Assembly (NCBI GenBank): GCA_023257795.1
Contig: JALRBL010000042.1
Coordinates: 1 to 41,759, forward strand
DNA from: Gammaproteobacteria bacterium
GTDB lineage: Bacteria > Pseudomonadota > Gammaproteobacteria > Magnimaribacterales > D2472
Length of the DNA stretch: 41,759 nt
Direction: 5' to 3'
The notes beneath the pieces are model-generated. The model made no database searches. It was not told the DNA's origin and saw only the letters and a program-made list of their open reading frames with translations. This document shows, in pieces, positions 14,980 through 21,716 of the stretch; position 1 is the first letter of the stretch, and the number at the start of each line of letters is the position of its first letter. The translations under genes and the position numbers were made by a program.

Positions 14980-16344
14980 TTAGGATAAATTTAACTCCAA
15001 ATTTGGCCTTACTATCGATAATTGTGCAAGAAAATTATCTTTGATTTCATCTAATCTTGCTTGAGAAATTGCTTCAAATCTTAAAACTAATTTTGGTGTA
15101 GTATTGGATGCTCGCAAAAGCCCCCAGCCATCTTTAAAGTCGACCCGTAAACCATCAATTGTATTTATCAAACCATCTTCAAATACTGCTGATTCCTTAA
15201 AATCATTGATGATATGAAATTTATCGCTTTCTTCGACATTGATATTTAGTTCAGGTGTGGAATGAGTTTTGGGATAAGCATCAATGATTTCACTTAATGG
15301 TCTTTTTGAGTTAGCCAAAATCTCTAAAAGCCTTACTCCTGAATAGTGACCATCATCAAATCCATACCAGGTATCGTTAAAGAATATGTGTCCGCTCATT
15401 TCCCCAGCAAGCAGGGCTTTCGTCTCTTTGAGTTTATTTTTGATATGGAAGTGTCCTGTCGGAGACATGATTGGGTTGCCCCCATTCTCAGTAATTATTT
15501 TTGCCAAGTTATTGGTGCACTTAACATCAAAGATAATATCTCCCTTCTGTTGTTTTAAAATATGTTCCGCAAAGAGCATCATTAACTTGTCTGGAAAAAT
15601 TGGATTTCCCAAATTATCAACTACGCCTAATCTATCTCCATCTCCATCAAAGGCTAAGCCAATATCTGCTTTTTCATTGATCAAGCAATCTATCAGGTCT
15701 TTTAGATTATCTATTTTCCCTGGATCTGGATGGTGATTAGGGAAGTTACCATCTACTTCAGAAAACAACTCAATAACCTCGCAACCAAGAGCATTAAATA
15801 GTTTTGGGGCTACTGCGCCTGCAGCTCCATTACCTGAGTCTATGACTACTTTAAGAATGCTAAAGTCTGCCTTTACTTTGGCAATTACCTCATCAATATA
15901 ATTCTCTATGAAAGAATGATTACTAACGTTGCTTCCTATTCTTTTGTTTTCGAACTTTAAATTAATAAGTTGTTTAAGTTCTTCTCCAGCAACAGGTTTA
16001 TCATTTATTACAGTTTTAAAGCCATTATGGTTTTTTGGGTTATGGCTACCTGTAATCATAACGCCACTTTTAGAAGAGATTTTTTTGGCTGCAAAGTACA
16101 GGAGAGGGCTTGTCACCAATCCAATGTTTATAGTATTGATGCCCTTACTATTTAGATATTGGATAAATTTTTCTTGAATGTATGGACCTGAAAGCCTGCC
16201 GTCTCTTCCAATAGCTAATGTATCAACGTTTTCTTGATGGCACTTGACGGCAATCCCATGCGCAATCTTTTCTAGCGCCTCATCGGACAGGTCATCAGGA
16301 AAGACGCCTCTAATATCGTATTCTCTAAATATTGATAAATTCAT
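14980..16344 (-). CDS. algC: phosphomannomutase/phosphoglucomutase
   Basis: FREYDIRGV, MITGSHNPKNHNGFK active serine, LAFDGDGDRLGVVD, AGEMSGHIFFND. Confidence 0.9.
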   Translation of the reverse strand: MNLSIFREYDIRGVFPDDLSDEALEKIAHGIAVKCHQENVDTLAIGRDGRLSGPYIQEKFIQYLNSKGINTINIGLVTSPLLYFAAKKISSKSGVMITGSHNPKNHNGFKTVINDKPVAGEELKQLINLKFENKRIGSNVSNHSFIENYIDEVIAKVKADFSILKVVIDSGNGAAGAVAPKLFNALGCEVIELFSEVDGNFPNHHPDPGKIDNLKDLIDCLINEKADIGLAFDGDGDRLGVVDNLGNPIFPDKLMMLFAEHILKQQKGDIIFDVKCTNNLAKIITENGGNPIMSPTGHFHIKNKLKETKALLAGEMSGHIFFNDTWYGFDDGHYSGVRLLEILANSKRPLSEIIDAYPKTHSTPELNINVEESDKFHIINDFKESAVFEDGLINTIDGLRVDFKDGWGLLRASNTTPKLVLRFEAISQARLDEIKDNFLAQLSIVRPNLELNLS

Positions 16345-16397: not shown

Positions 16398-17321
16398 ATG
16401 TTTCTAAATACAGACTCAAAATTCATTTGGCTTAACGGCAACTTTTCACCATGGGATGAAAGCAAAGTTCATATGCTCACACATACGCTTCATTATGGTA
16501 TGGGAGTTTTTGAAGGTGTAAGAGCTTATTCGGACAGCAATGGAAAGGGAAGCATCTTTAGACTGCAGGATCATACCAAGAGATTATTTGATGCAGCTCA
16601 GAAGATTGACTTAAAAATTCCTTTTTCTATGGACGAGATTAATCAAGCGCAAATAGAAACTTTAAAGAAAAATAGTCTCTCGGAAGGCTATATCCGCCCC
16701 TTGGTATTTTTAGGCAACGAATCGATGGGACTAAGAGCTAGAGATTTATCAGTCAATGTTGCAATAGCTTGTTGGGAGTGGCCTTCTTATATGGATCCTG
16801 AAAAAAAAGCTCAAGGAATCGATATTATCAAGTCCCCTTTTAATCAATATGAAAATCCTCTTTATTCAAACAATAAAATTATTGGCACTTACATAAATTC
16901 AATTATGGCCCTGCATGATGCCTTAAGAAAAGGAGCAGATGAAGCATTGCTTCTTGATAAGCATGGAAATATTTCTGAAGGAAGTGGAGAAAATCTTTTT
17001 ATTGTTAAAAACAATTGCTTGCTGACGCCAAGTGCAGAATATTGCCTTAATGGAATCACAAGGCAAAGTATCTTTGAGATATCTAAATCTTTAGAGCTTG
17101 AAATTAACGAGGTTGTTTTAAGCCTTGATGATCTTAAAAATGCTGATGAGGCTTTTTTTACAGGCACGGCAGTAGAAGTCATGCCAATTAGATCTATTGA
17201 TGCGCATGTGATTGGCAGTGGTAAAAGAGGTCCTGTAACCGAAATACTTCAATCTAAATATAGTCAAATAGTTCGAGGAGAGAGCCGAGCTTTTTCTCAT
17301 TGGCTAACAAATATCATTTAA
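16398..17321 (+). CDS. ilvE: branched-chain amino acid aminotransferase
   Basis: HTLHYGMGVFEGVRAY, YIRPLVFLG, SEGSGENLFIVKN, EAFFTGTAVEVMPI. Confidence 0.95.
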   Translation: MFLNTDSKFIWLNGNFSPWDESKVHMLTHTLHYGMGVFEGVRAYSDSNGKGSIFRLQDHTKRLFDAAQKIDLKIPFSMDEINQAQIETLKKNSLSEGYIRPLVFLGNESMGLRARDLSVNVAIACWEWPSYMDPEKKAQGIDIIKSPFNQYENPLYSNNKIIGTYINSIMALHDALRKGADEALLLDKHGNISEGSGENLFIVKNNCLLTPSAEYCLNGITRQSIFEISKSLELEINEVVLSLDDLKNADEAFFTGTAVEVMPIRSIDAHVIGSGKRGPVTEILQSKYSQIVRGESRAFSHWLTNII

Positions 17322-17324
17322 GTT

Positions 17325-18569
17325 TTGAAAAAACTTACTATTGGAATACTAAGCTATAGGAGCGCTCCATTTAGCGGCGGTCAAGGTATTTATGTTGCAG
17401 AGATTTCAAGGCTTTTGAGGGATCTTGGGCACAAAATAACGGTAATTTCTGGCCCCCCTTATCCACATCTTGATACTGGAATAAATCTCATCAAACTCCC
17501 CGGCCTTAATTTATTTTCCACATTTAATTTTCGTGATAGGTTAAAGAAATTCCTAAAAAAGAATCCAAAATCTTTGGATGATTATTATGAATTCTTTGTG
17601 GCTTTGATTGGTGGATTTCCTGAAATGAGAACCTTTGGCAATAGAGCGCATAAGTTTATAAAACCCGGTGATTTTGATGTGCTAATTGATAATCAAAGTC
17701 TTGCCTTCGGTTTAGTAGCAATTCAAAAACATACTCCAATTCTCACTGTTATACATCATCCAATATCCAAAGATAGGCACTTCGAATTATTTTTTTCAAA
17801 AAGCACGATTCGAAGATTTTTTATCAAGCGTTGGTATGGTTTTTTACCTATGCAAAAAAGGGTTGCTAAACAAATGGAGCAAATCTTAACTCCCTCAATG
17901 AATTCACGAAGAGATATTTGCGATGATTTTGGAGTTAAGGAATCCAAAATATCAGTGATTCATAATGGTATTGATAGCTCAGTTTTTAGCCCTTTAAATG
18001 ATAGAAAAGATTTTAGTAATAATTTCCGAATTATTACGACCGCAAGCGCAGATGTTCCTTTAAAAGGATTGAGCTTTACAATCAAAGCCATCGATCTATT
18101 AAGAGAAAGATTTCCAAAAATACATTTAACAGTAATCGGTCAGCCAAAAAGCGGAGGATATACCGAAAGATTGATAGATGAATTAAACATTTCAGACTTT
18201 ATTTCATTTAAAACCAACCTAACTAAAGATGAAATCGTATTTGAGTATGCTTGCAGCTCAATTGCTGTCGTAAGTTCACTCTACGAAGGCTTTGGTTTTC
18301 CTGTTGGCGAGGCAATGGCATGCAACGTTCCATTGGTTGCAACCAATGTTGCATCTATCCCAGAGATTACTTCAACATTTGCAACTTTAATCAATTCAGA
18401 ATCTTCATCAAAGATTGCAGAGGCAATAGAAGAAATATTTTCAGATTACTCTTTTTTCCAACAAAGAGCATTTCAAGGAATGATGCATATCAAAGAAAAT
18501 TTTAATTGGGCAAAAATTGCTATTGACTATGAGGATTTACTCTATCGAGTTATTAACCAAAGATGCTGA
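17325..18569 (+). CDS. glycosyltransferase family 4 (TTG start)
   Basis: SYRSAPFSGGQGIYVAEISRLLRDLGHKITVISG, VIHNGIDSSVF, SSLYEGFGFPVGEAMACNVPLVATNVASIPEI. Confidence 0.9.
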   Translation: MKKLTIGILSYRSAPFSGGQGIYVAEISRLLRDLGHKITVISGPPYPHLDTGINLIKLPGLNLFSTFNFRDRLKKFLKKNPKSLDDYYEFFVALIGGFPEMRTFGNRAHKFIKPGDFDVLIDNQSLAFGLVAIQKHTPILTVIHHPISKDRHFELFFSKSTIRRFFIKRWYGFLPMQKRVAKQMEQILTPSMNSRRDICDDFGVKESKISVIHNGIDSSVFSPLNDRKDFSNNFRIITTASADVPLKGLSFTIKAIDLLRERFPKIHLTVIGQPKSGGYTERLIDELNISDFISFKTNLTKDEIVFEYACSSIAVVSSLYEGFGFPVGEAMACNVPLVATNVASIPEITSTFATLINSESSSKIAEAIEEIFSDYSFFQQRAFQGMMHIKENFNWAKIAIDYEDLLYRVINQRC

Positions 18570-19273
18570 CTTTTGAATTAGATAAAATTTATCTTTCCAC
18601 CAATAAACCTAAGATCTTAGATATTGGTTGTGGTGAGGGTAGACATATTTTTGGCTGCATGACTCAGTTTGCAAACGCGAGGATTTTTGGAGTCGATATG
18701 CACTTAGATTCTTTGATGAAGTGTGTTGAAGGACAGTCATTTTTTGAGGGACACAACAATTGCAAAAATGCTTATTTTCAGTCTTCCGTTTACGACTTAC
18801 CCTTTAGAGAGAAATCGTTTGATTTAATCATTTGCTCAGAAGTGATGGAACATCTTGATGATTACAACAAGGCATTTGAAATAATACACACCTTACTCAA
18901 GGATGACGGAATTCTCCTCATCAGCGTTCCATCGTACTTACCTGAAAAGCTTTGCTGGCTCTTATCTCGTCAGTATCCAAAGACACCCGGTGGGCACGTA
19001 AGAATTTTTACCAAATCGATTCTCAGAGAAGATTTTGCAAGCCACGGTTTTAAAATACAAAGCACAAAAAGATTTCATGCATTCCATTCTCCATACTGGT
19101 GGCTGAGGTGCTTATTTTGGGAAAGTCAGGATTCAAATTTTTTTGTAAAACAATACAAGAAGTTTCTTGAATACCAGATTTTAAATGAAACAAAATTGCT
19201 TGATGCATTTGAAGCCTTCCTTAATCCATTTCTGGGTAAAAGCATTTCATTTGTCCTCACAAAAAAATTATGA
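18563..19273 (+). CDS. class I SAM-dependent methyltransferase
   Basis: ILDIGCGEGRHIFG, FGVDMHLDSL, DLPFREKSFDLIICSEVMEHLDDYNKAFEII; 7-bp overlap with the upstream GT. Confidence 0.9.
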   Translation: MLTFELDKIYLSTNKPKILDIGCGEGRHIFGCMTQFANARIFGVDMHLDSLMKCVEGQSFFEGHNNCKNAYFQSSVYDLPFREKSFDLIICSEVMEHLDDYNKAFEIIHTLLKDDGILLISVPSYLPEKLCWLLSRQYPKTPGGHVRIFTKSILREDFASHGFKIQSTKRFHAFHSPYWWLRCLFWESQDSNFFVKQYKKFLEYQILNETKLLDAFEAFLNPFLGKSISFVLTKKL

Positions 19274-20307
19274 AATTAGCAAAGCAATTTACAAATGAAA
19301 AGGTTGCTGATTTAGCATTGTCTCTAGGTAAATTTCTTCTCAAAAAACAAGCAAATGATGGCAGCCTTTTAAGCAAGGATGATGGGACTCATGATCCATG
19401 GGATCATTTAGAGGCCGTTATAGGTCTTATTATTGCAAAAGAGTTTGATGCTGCAAAACTTGGATTGCAATGGATGATATCTAATCAAAATACTGATGGG
19501 AGCTGGTATAACACCTACAAAAAATCTAGGCCAGTTCAAAAAAATAAGCAAAGCAATCATGCTGCCTATCTTGCAACAGCTTCTTATTATTATTATTTGG
19601 CAACTGGAGATAGGGAGTATATTGAAGAAATATATCCCACCATTAAAAATGGGTTTTCCTTTTTGCGATCTATGCAGGCATCCTCTGGGGCATTTGCATG
19701 GAGCATTGATGAGGAGGGGTGCCTCGCAGATGATTATTTAATTGCAGGCAATAGCTCAATTTTTAAAAGTCTCGAGTGTCTCTTCCATCTTGCAAAAATA
19801 TTAAAGGACAAGACAACACAAGAACAATGCATTCGTTTGCGAGAAGGTATTCAGAGAGCATTTAGGAATGTCAAAGATAATTTCGATTTAACGATTGATA
19901 GAAGTCGTTTCTCAATGGATTTTTATTATCCAGCTCTTTGCGGCGTTCCTTTTGATAAAGATTTATTTTTTACTTCACTGAATTCCTTTTATGTTGAAGG
20001 CATTGGAATAAAATGCGTGATTGAAGAGCCTTGGGTTACTGTTGCCGAATCTTGCGAATGCGCACTTGCTTTGCTCAAAATTGGATATGCTGATAAAGCT
20101 AAGAAACTCTTACAAGAAGTTTATGAAATTAGCGATCAAAATAATATCCCTTTTATGGGTTGGCAATACAAGGAAGAAATTTTTTGGCCCGAGGAGCAAC
20201 CTACCTGGACGGCAGGGGCAATGCTCATACTTTTAGATGCTCTGTTCAAACTAACAGGAGCGAGTAATCTATTTTTGGATTCGATTACCTCTGAAGACAA
20301 ACAATAG
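19270..20307 (+). CDS. alpha/alpha-toroid (prenyltransferase/squalene-cyclase-like or six-hairpin) protein of unknown function
   Basis: LALSLGKFLLKKQANDGSLL, LQWMISNQNTDGSWYNTY, FLRSMQASSGAFAWS repeats; ATGA overlap with the upstream methyltransferase. Confidence 0.7.
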   Translation: MKLAKQFTNEKVADLALSLGKFLLKKQANDGSLLSKDDGTHDPWDHLEAVIGLIIAKEFDAAKLGLQWMISNQNTDGSWYNTYKKSRPVQKNKQSNHAAYLATASYYYYLATGDREYIEEIYPTIKNGFSFLRSMQASSGAFAWSIDEEGCLADDYLIAGNSSIFKSLECLFHLAKILKDKTTQEQCIRLREGIQRAFRNVKDNFDLTIDRSRFSMDFYYPALCGVPFDKDLFFTSLNSFYVEGIGIKCVIEEPWVTVAESCECALALLKIGYADKAKKLLQEVYEISDQNNIPFMGWQYKEEIFWPEEQPTWTAGAMLILLDALFKLTGASNLFLDSITSEDKQ

Positions 20308-20893
20308 TGTCTTCTCTATCAATAATTTGATAGCCATCCTCAATTGATTTTTGCATAACTTTATAGGGGGCAAGCCCGCCTAAGTTGGGATCCTCATATA
20401 TGTCGTGAAAAACCAACACACCACCTTTGATAATTTTTTGATTCCAAGATGTATAGTCATTAAGCGCTGTCTCATACGCATGACCTCCATCTATGAATAG
20501 TAGTCCGAGTGTTTGTTGCCATGCTTGTGCAATAGTTTGTGATTTACCAATTAAAGGAATGATTTTGTGCCCAAAGTTATTGGCTGCCAAATTTTTCATA
20601 AGAATTGGCAAGGTATTAATTGCATTTAATTTTTTATCAAATATTTCTGGATCAAAGTACTCCTGGTTCGTTTGATGCTCTTCGGAACCTGAGTGATGAT
20701 CAAGGGTAAAGATTTTTTGATGCGATTCTTTAAGTGCAAATGCAAGCAAGTGAGCTGATTTACCACAAAAGGAGCCTATTTCTAGAGCTGGAGCAGACTC
20801 GCAATAAGTTTTGCACCACCTCATCAAAGCCAGGCCCTCATGCTTTGGCATGAAACCTTTTAGAGCAAAGATCTTCTCAAGCTCTTTACTCAT
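20285..20893 (-). CDS. class I SAM-dependent methyltransferase (Methyltransf_24 type); likely ATG start at 20893
   Basis: ALEIGSFCGKSAHLLAFAL, FTLDHHSGSEEHQ, LLFIDGGHAYETALNDY, GGVLVFHDIYEDP. The listed ORF extends to 20974 but ATG 20893 overlaps the upstream gene by only 8 bp. Confidence 0.85.
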   Translation of the reverse strand: MSKELEKIFALKGFMPKHEGLALMRWCKTYCESAPALEIGSFCGKSAHLLAFALKESHQKIFTLDHHSGSEEHQTNQEYFDPEIFDKKLNAINTLPILMKNLAANNFGHKIIPLIGKSQTIAQAWQQTLGLLFIDGGHAYETALNDYTSWNQKIIKGGVLVFHDIYEDPNLGGLAPYKVMQKSIEDGYQIIDREDTIVCLQR

Positions 20894-21716
20894 AAAATTT
20901 CTTTCCCAGAGATGACTTAAATCTCCTGTGTTGCCAAAGATATTCTTCAGGTTTTTTCTTAATCGAATCTTCAATCAATCTAGTAATTGCTCTCTCCGAA
21001 AAATCATTTTTGCATTCTGTTATTTCAAGATTAAGCAGATGATTGTCCATCCAAGAATCTAAGAAATATACGCGACAATTAGTCAATCTCTGCAGTCGTT
21101 CAACCGTATTTATAGTGAAGCATTCAATTCCAAAAAAATTCGATAGCTCAGCATTTGTTTTTCCGTAATCTTGATCAATAGCGTACATAACAAACTCTTT
21201 TTGAGAGAGAAGTTTGACTAACTTTCTAACTTCTTTTCGATCAATTGTGCCTTTCAGAGACTTTAGTCTTCCTGAATCTTGGAGTTTGTTGATTGCTCTA
21301 TTGTTGTGATTTCTTCCCATGCCAAAAACTGACAAATGCATACCCAATATTCTTGCATCGAGCTCCAAGTGGAGGGAGTGTTTAAAAATGATAAGCCCTC
21401 CGCTCGGGCTATTAATTAGAGGATCCAAACCATGGATAACATGCGGTATTGTGCTTCTTATTTTGTCATTGGACCAAAACCATGCAATTGCTGTGTTGAA
21501 TAGAGACCTACCCATATGACCACAATTGTTAACCAGTATGCCATTGTTAGATTTTTGATTGTTTTCAGGAAAACATATTTCGATATTCTTTCTGGCGTAG
21601 CGAACTCTTTTTCCATTTAAAACGAGTGCAATCTTCCCAAATAATTTACCTAATATTTCCTGCAAGGGTTGCGGGAGGAGCGATAGAATTCTTAATATTT
21701 GTATGACAATAATCAT
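20886..21716 (-). CDS. LpxL/HtrB-family lipid A (lysophospholipid) acyltransferase
   Basis: GLIIFKHSLHLELDAR with HX4E motif, YAIDQDYGKTNAELSNFFGI, EYLWQHRRFK. Confidence 0.85.
   Translation of the reverse strand: MIIVIQILRILSLLPQPLQEILGKLFGKIALVLNGKRVRYARKNIEICFPENNQKSNNGILVNNCGHMGRSLFNTAIAWFWSNDKIRSTIPHVIHGLDPLINSPSGGLIIFKHSLHLELDARILGMHLSVFGMGRNHNNRAINKLQDSGRLKSLKGTIDRKEVRKLVKLLSQKEFVMYAIDQDYGKTNAELSNFFGIECFTINTVERLQRLTNCRVYFLDSWMDNHLLNLEITECKNDFSERAITRLIEDSIKKKPEEYLWQHRRFKSSLGKKFYE

Follow-up and report, generated by a model that had tools for sequence, protein, structure and literature searches.

The window analyzed here, a 41,759-nt stretch of contig JALRBL010000042.1, belongs to Magnimaribacterales, the SAR86 order (PMC11582366), and contains a module of four genes. 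Three of them are on the forward strand: a manT homolog (17325..18569), which codes for a GT4 protein of 414 aa similar to alpha-(1->4)-mannosyltransferases; a meT3 homolog (18563..19273), which codes for a putative 3-O-methyltransferase of 236 aa; and an mmpH homolog (19270..20307), which codes for an (alpha/alpha)6 toroid of 345 aa resembling the endo-alpha-1,4-mannosidase that hydrolyzes 3-O-methylmannose polysaccharide (MMP). The fourth, a meT1 homolog (20285..20893, reverse strand), codes for a 1-O-methyltransferase-like protein (Methyltransf_24) of 202 aa, counted from an ATG at 20893. All four open reading frames (ORFs) are in the ORF list of the window, with the overlaps that an initial annotation of this DNA had described: 7 bp between manT and meT3, 4 bp (ATGA) between meT3 and mmpH and 23 bp, tail to tail, between mmpH and meT1. 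Pfam models recognize GT4 domains, Methyltransf_23/11 in the second gene and Methyltransf_24 in the fourth, and the toroid exceeds no Pfam cut-off (best score 17.5 bits, squalene cyclase C-terminal domain, cut-off 26.1). That annotation left the function of the module as unknown, but its proteins are homologs of those of the MMP cluster characterized in Mycolicibacterium hassiacum (manT, pmeT3, mmpH and meT1; Maranha et al. 2023, PMC9883506). The four genes are very probably the SAR86 version of this actinobacterial cluster, and their product would be a short cytosolic alpha-1,4 3-O-methylated hexose polymer, most likely of mannose.

This identity is proposed because the best PDB matches of three of the four proteins are, by a wide margin, crystallized MMP enzymes. 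The GT4 protein matches 7QSG (phmmer, E 1.3e-72; the next PDB match is at 9e-13), which, in line with the published description of a ManT structure, is ManT of M. hassiacum. The window protein is 37% identical to this enzyme, whose crystal structure has been described (PMC9883506), and the equivalents of ManT Gly15, His142, Lys240, Glu313 and Glu321 (G18, H144, K247, E321 and E329) are invariant in 92 of 92 sequences. The toroid finds 7QSJ as its best PDB match (phmmer, E 7e-48), an entry that corresponds to the methylmannose polysaccharide hydrolase MmpH of M. hassiacum, and its AlphaFold model (pLDDT 94.9) superimposes on that crystal structure with a TM score of 0.89-0.90 and a root-mean-square deviation (rmsd) of 1.5-1.7 Å. 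Below MmpH, the list of the 50 best fold matches of the model consists of different (alpha/alpha)6 enzymes (TM ~0.6-0.74, rmsd >4 Å) and contains no entry recognized as GH15 or GH125. MmpH residues D47, D50, E262, E265 and W315 correspond to D42, D45, E260, E263 and W313 in the window protein and are kept in 40/40 SAR86 sequences, and the equivalents of Met215 and Tyr219 are conserved too; in MmpH, alanine mutants of Asp47, Asp50 and Glu262 lose most or all of the activity (PMC9883506). The translation of the toroid contains no DxDD motif. The suggestion of the initial annotation that this protein could be a glycan-acting six-hairpin enzyme rather than a prenyltransferase is thus confirmed by the MmpH fold (TM 0.90) and by the conserved catalytic acids D42, D45 and E260. 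GH15 and GH125 glycosidases have the same fold class and also the catalytic base in common with MmpH (PMC9883506), although the toroid sequence falls under family cut-offs. Most SAR86 genomes have been reported to contain a "glucoamylase (sga1)" (PMC11582366), which could be the MmpH homolog annotated in general terms.

The two methyltransferases differ in how closely their solved relatives resemble them. The Methyltransf_24 protein matches PDB entries 6G7D, 6G80 and 6H40 (phmmer, E 5.4e-42), of which 6G7D and 6H40 are MeT1 structures, and its DHH.GSEE.Q motif is invariant in 87 of 87 sequences, including M. hassiacum MeT1. MeT3 has no close solved relative among PDB sequences. Its AlphaFold model (pLDDT 95.9) finds its nearest solved folds in AtmM and RebM, sugar O-methyltransferases of indolocarbazole pathways that act on indolocarbazole glycosides. 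This gene is homologous to the one that occupies the same slot in the clusters of Streptomyces, Blastococcus and Aeromicrobium, a position taken by pmeT3 in the mycobacterial cluster, where pMeT3 is a putative 3-O-methyltransferase as well (PMC9883506). The order manT-pmeT3-mmpH-meT1 is the same as that of MHAS_04402-04405 of M. hassiacum (PMC9883506). The SAR86 and mycobacterial clusters share their four families, their order, the catalytic residues of ManT and MmpH and the MmpH fold. They differ in that the SAR86 host is Gram-negative and has a 1.2-Mb genome, in the sequence identity (31-40%), in the classical GDP-mannose supply genes, which are mostly missing, in meT1, which in SAR86 runs on the opposite strand with an overlap into lpxL, and in the distribution, near-universal within SAR86 instead of scattered.

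Nearly all members of the SAR86 order carry the module. MmpH is present in 58 of 61 relatives from the order (four families and 18 genera). MeT1 occurs in 173 of 203 genomes of the order and, when only the 40 with a completeness of at least 90% are considered, in 39. The four genes keep their synteny in almost all of the 55 loci examined, and the 25 named SAR86 loci have manT, meT3 and mmpH co-oriented and meT1 present in every case. Outside SAR86 the block is sporadic: it is found in other Gammaproteobacteria, Alphaproteobacteria, Desulfobacterota, Actinomycetota and a haloarchaeon, the spread to Actinomycetota and Halobacteria coming from a scan of named contigs (best 80 loci) that is biased towards window-like sequences. 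Among these 80 loci, the closest matches were SAR86 contigs. Non-SAR86 carriers were 5 among 369 gammaproteobacterial genomes, 4 among 399 of the phylum and 16 of 190 in the class of genome G715, and those with names include Haliea, Microbulbifer, Simiduia, Parvibaculum, Smithella, Streptomyces, Blastococcus, Aeromicrobium and the haloarchaeon Natrinema gari, in which no MeT1 lies within the stretch of the locus examined. A search of plasmids gave a single distant match, in Nonomuraea. In 55 of 63 non-SAR86 loci, some of which end at contig edges, manT, meT3 and mmpH are co-oriented, and meT1 is within the stretch examined in 47 loci, 46 of which have it on the opposite strand. Since the block recurs across phyla, the module is not a chance arrangement, and the initial annotation was right in suspecting a cross-phylum module with counterparts that sit together in actinobacteria (the manT-meT3-mmpH block of Streptomyces, Blastococcus and Aeromicrobium); its co-occurrence beyond close relatives is upheld by the co-oriented loci.

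A tree of the four proteins (quick method, LG, midpoint), from which neither root nor direction was inferred and in which the long branches L086-L088 are unreliable, places all SAR86 sequences on one side of a branch with 100% support, and the actinobacteria together with M. hassiacum in one clade. The tree gives no sure sister group of SAR86, and the pattern is consistent with a single ancient gain or inheritance and vertical descent within SAR86 thereafter. One locus on a SAR324-labelled contig (L136) carries the module inside the gammaproteobacterial part of the tree, which may reflect lateral transfer or a mis-binned contig.

Around the module, ilvE (16398..17321, forward strand, over the cut-off of NCBIfam TIGR01122) is the co-oriented neighbor directly upstream, and manT starts with a TTG 3 bases past its stop. 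A PgmG-like phosphoglucomutase/phosphomannomutase gene (14980..16344, reverse strand; NCBIfam NF046027, 459 bits, under the cut-off of 600) precedes ilvE, and an lpxL-like acyltransferase gene (20886..21716, reverse strand) lies on the other side; neither ilvE nor lpxL is counted as a module gene. The module is therefore split, with ilvE-manT-meT3-mmpH running rightward with a 3-base gap or overlaps and meT1 running leftward behind lpxL. The ORF finder starts meT1 at a TTG (20974), but the true start is likely the ATG at 20893, the boundary that had been given previously, because SAR86 homologs are mostly of ~200 aa and this ATG overlaps the lpxL stop. The genes ilvE, lpxL and that for phosphomannomutase are conserved neighbors inside SAR86 only, which provides an internal control against the non-SAR86 loci.

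Streptomyces clusters have likewise a manT-meT3-mmpH block, with meT1 encoded on the other strand at a distance of a few kb (loci L155, L156, L161, L169 and L171). The SAR86 module differs in that no acetyltransferase gene lies beside it; in Cellvibrionales, Desulfobacterota and others, mmpH is followed by such a gene. In 14 non-SAR86 loci the module has a sugar O-acetyltransferase gene of the hexapeptide type nearby (L140:7918-8631, where it overlaps the mmpH stop, L089, L116, L119, L136, L139, L145, L152, L153, L157, L160, L165, L166 and L168), and these carriers may make acetylated versions of MMP, because S. griseus is known to make one (PMC9883506). A different compound, the 6-O-methylglucose lipopolysaccharide (MGLP), has been proposed to bind acyl chains, is made by other enzymes and is based on glucose. 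It resembles the expected product in being cytosolic and polymethylated, but none of the MGLP genes was seen in the SAR86 module.

The mycobacterial MmpH cleaves mature MMP to yield defined oligomannosides, which ManT extends; the added units are methylated by a 3-O-methyltransferase that is probably pMeT3, and free reducing ends are capped by MeT1 (PMC9883506). Mycobacteria from which mmpH was deleted make no MMP and grow more slowly at 15 C, and the polysaccharide has been proposed to bind acyl-CoA (PMC9883506). Because the parts are conserved, the same self-recycling cycle is the best explanation for the SAR86 genes, whose activities, product, donor sugar and physiological role are assigned by analogy with these bacteria. 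If they work as in M. hassiacum and M. smegmatis, ManT would extend oligomannosides with activated mannose, MeT3 would methylate the O-3 of the added units, MeT1 would 1-O-methylate the reducing end as a cap and MmpH would cleave mature chains internally, releasing primers for new chains. The role carried over from mycobacteria would be the binding of long-chain acyl-CoA and growth in cold water; SAR86 has been described as centered on beta-oxidation (PMC11582366), which, together with the proposed acyl-CoA binding, makes a link with lipid metabolism attractive and such a role compatible.

Several observations weigh against this interpretation. The window proteins are 31-40% identical to the M. 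hassiacum enzymes, under the threshold (>50% identity, with 70% coverage) of the cluster screen in which MMP clusters were sought (PMC9883506), although this threshold served an actinobacterial screen and is not a functional definition. The guanine-contact residue of ManT, Asp293, is K301 in the window protein, at a position that varies widely, also in other carriers. The window's genome (86% complete) has no TIGR01479 (ManC/AlgA) match, strong matches to this model (over about 180 bits) are found in 6 of 33 SAR86 genomes but in 15 of the 20 other carriers of the module, and 20 SAR86 genomes contain no type I ManA above the cut-off, so that the usual genes do not account for the supply of GDP-mannose. 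The same genome has no match to domain models of the type I fatty acid synthase (FAS-I); since mycobacterial MMP is proposed to act on fatty-acid metabolism, a role identical to that one is not assured.

A survey with PF00483, TIGR01479 and TIGR00218 revealed no universal GDP-mannose route in SAR86. It is possible that the PgmG-like mutase encoded beside the module supplies mannose-1-phosphate, a connection inferred from its position. A short MurU-like nucleotidyltransferase is present in all 12 genomes of the PF00483 survey (under the MurU cut-off in the two scored) and its gene adjoins that of an APH-type kinase in the loci read. The order APH-type kinase, MurU-like nucleotidyltransferase and ribulose-phosphate-epimerase-like gene is conserved in SAR86 (L178:545-2163 (G000:C6), L190, L197, L198 and L204-L206). 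As the NagZ step of N-acetylmuramic acid recycling is reported to be largely absent from SAR86, the kinase and MurU-like pair may do something other than this recycling. All four SAR86 genomes inspected for it contain a fusion of ~258 aa between a cytidylyltransferase-like domain and a mannose-6-phosphate-isomerase-type cupin (L211:1662-2438, L212:2080-2853, L213:2131-2901 and L214:2014-2787). Similar C-terminal TIGR01479 matches occur in many more SAR86 genomes, and this fusion is probably their source. Either the MurU-like enzyme or this fusion could supply a nucleoside diphosphate (NDP)-mannose, or the SAR86 polymer could use another sugar. A speculative and rather doubtful extension would have a methylated alpha-1,4-hexose polymer, its sugar activated by one of these non-classical routes, as a core acyl-CoA carrier for a cold-water life based on fatty-acid oxidation, that is, a variant of MMP with a different donor and in a new physiological context.

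The closest rival is a polymer built with the same logic from another hexose or donor, or from GDP-mannose made by an unrecognized enzyme, in which case the 3-O-methylated alpha-1,4 chain would not be exactly MMP. This is unlikely, although the absence of classical ManC and ManA from most near-complete SAR86 genomes, the replacement of ManT D293 and the presence of the kinase-associated MurU-like nucleotidyltransferase and of the cupin fusion all point in its direction, because MmpH, MeT1 and MeT3 are co-conserved with the mycobacterial set, variation at D293 is also seen where ManC is present, a gene for a PgmG-like phosphomannomutase adjoins the module and the MurU-like enzyme could be a GDP-mannose pyrophosphorylase in its own right.

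The initial annotation had instead favored a glycolipid or glycoconjugate, noting the placement beside LpxL-like and WaaA genes; on this reading of a surface glycoconjugate, the module would make or decorate a lipopolysaccharide (LPS), O-antigen or glycolipid. The genes lpxL and waaA do flank it in two SAR86 families (f1 and f4), waaA (8 non-SAR86 loci) and rfbA/B or HldE-like genes are nearby in some Halieaceae and relatives, and a 3-O-methylmannose O-antigen of Oligotropha is among the examples cited in PMC9883506. This reading is nevertheless highly improbable: the placement beside lpxL and waaA is not inherent in the module, since the neighbors shared outside SAR86 include neither lpxL nor ilvE nor the phosphomannomutase gene and waaA is near only those 8 loci there, the module has no flippase or polymerase, the nearest characterized enzymes act on a cytosolic polymer (PMC9883506), and hydropathy indicates neither a signal peptide nor a membrane segment in any module protein, which favors a cytosolic polysaccharide over LPS decoration. 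A terpenoid pathway in which the toroid would act as a squalene-hopene-cyclase-like enzyme has practically nothing left to recommend it; the matches to SQHop_cyclase_C and to TIGR cyclase models are weak and all under their cut-offs, the DxDD motif is missing, and the fold and catalytic acids are those of MmpH, so that the toroid was rejected as a terpene cyclase.

As a version of the MMP system, the cluster brings no new mechanism; what is unexpected is to find a known pathway in such a core position. MMP has so far been treated as a mycobacterial or actinobacterial polysaccharide; the published cluster screen covered actinobacteria only and proteobacteria are never mentioned in that paper (PMC9883506). 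In the open-access literature, which excludes subscription papers, the MmpH/ManT paper was the sole one on the system and no paper pairs methylmannose with Gammaproteobacteria. Names can now be given to four genes for which general family models offer none, and a complete set, in the same order and near-universal in an abundant and streamlined ocean group, suggests that the polymer matters outside mycobacteria, also where, as in the window's genome, there is no FAS-I match. With the cultured SAR86 isolate HIMB1674 as test organism, the purpose of MMP would become testable in a small Gram-negative genome.

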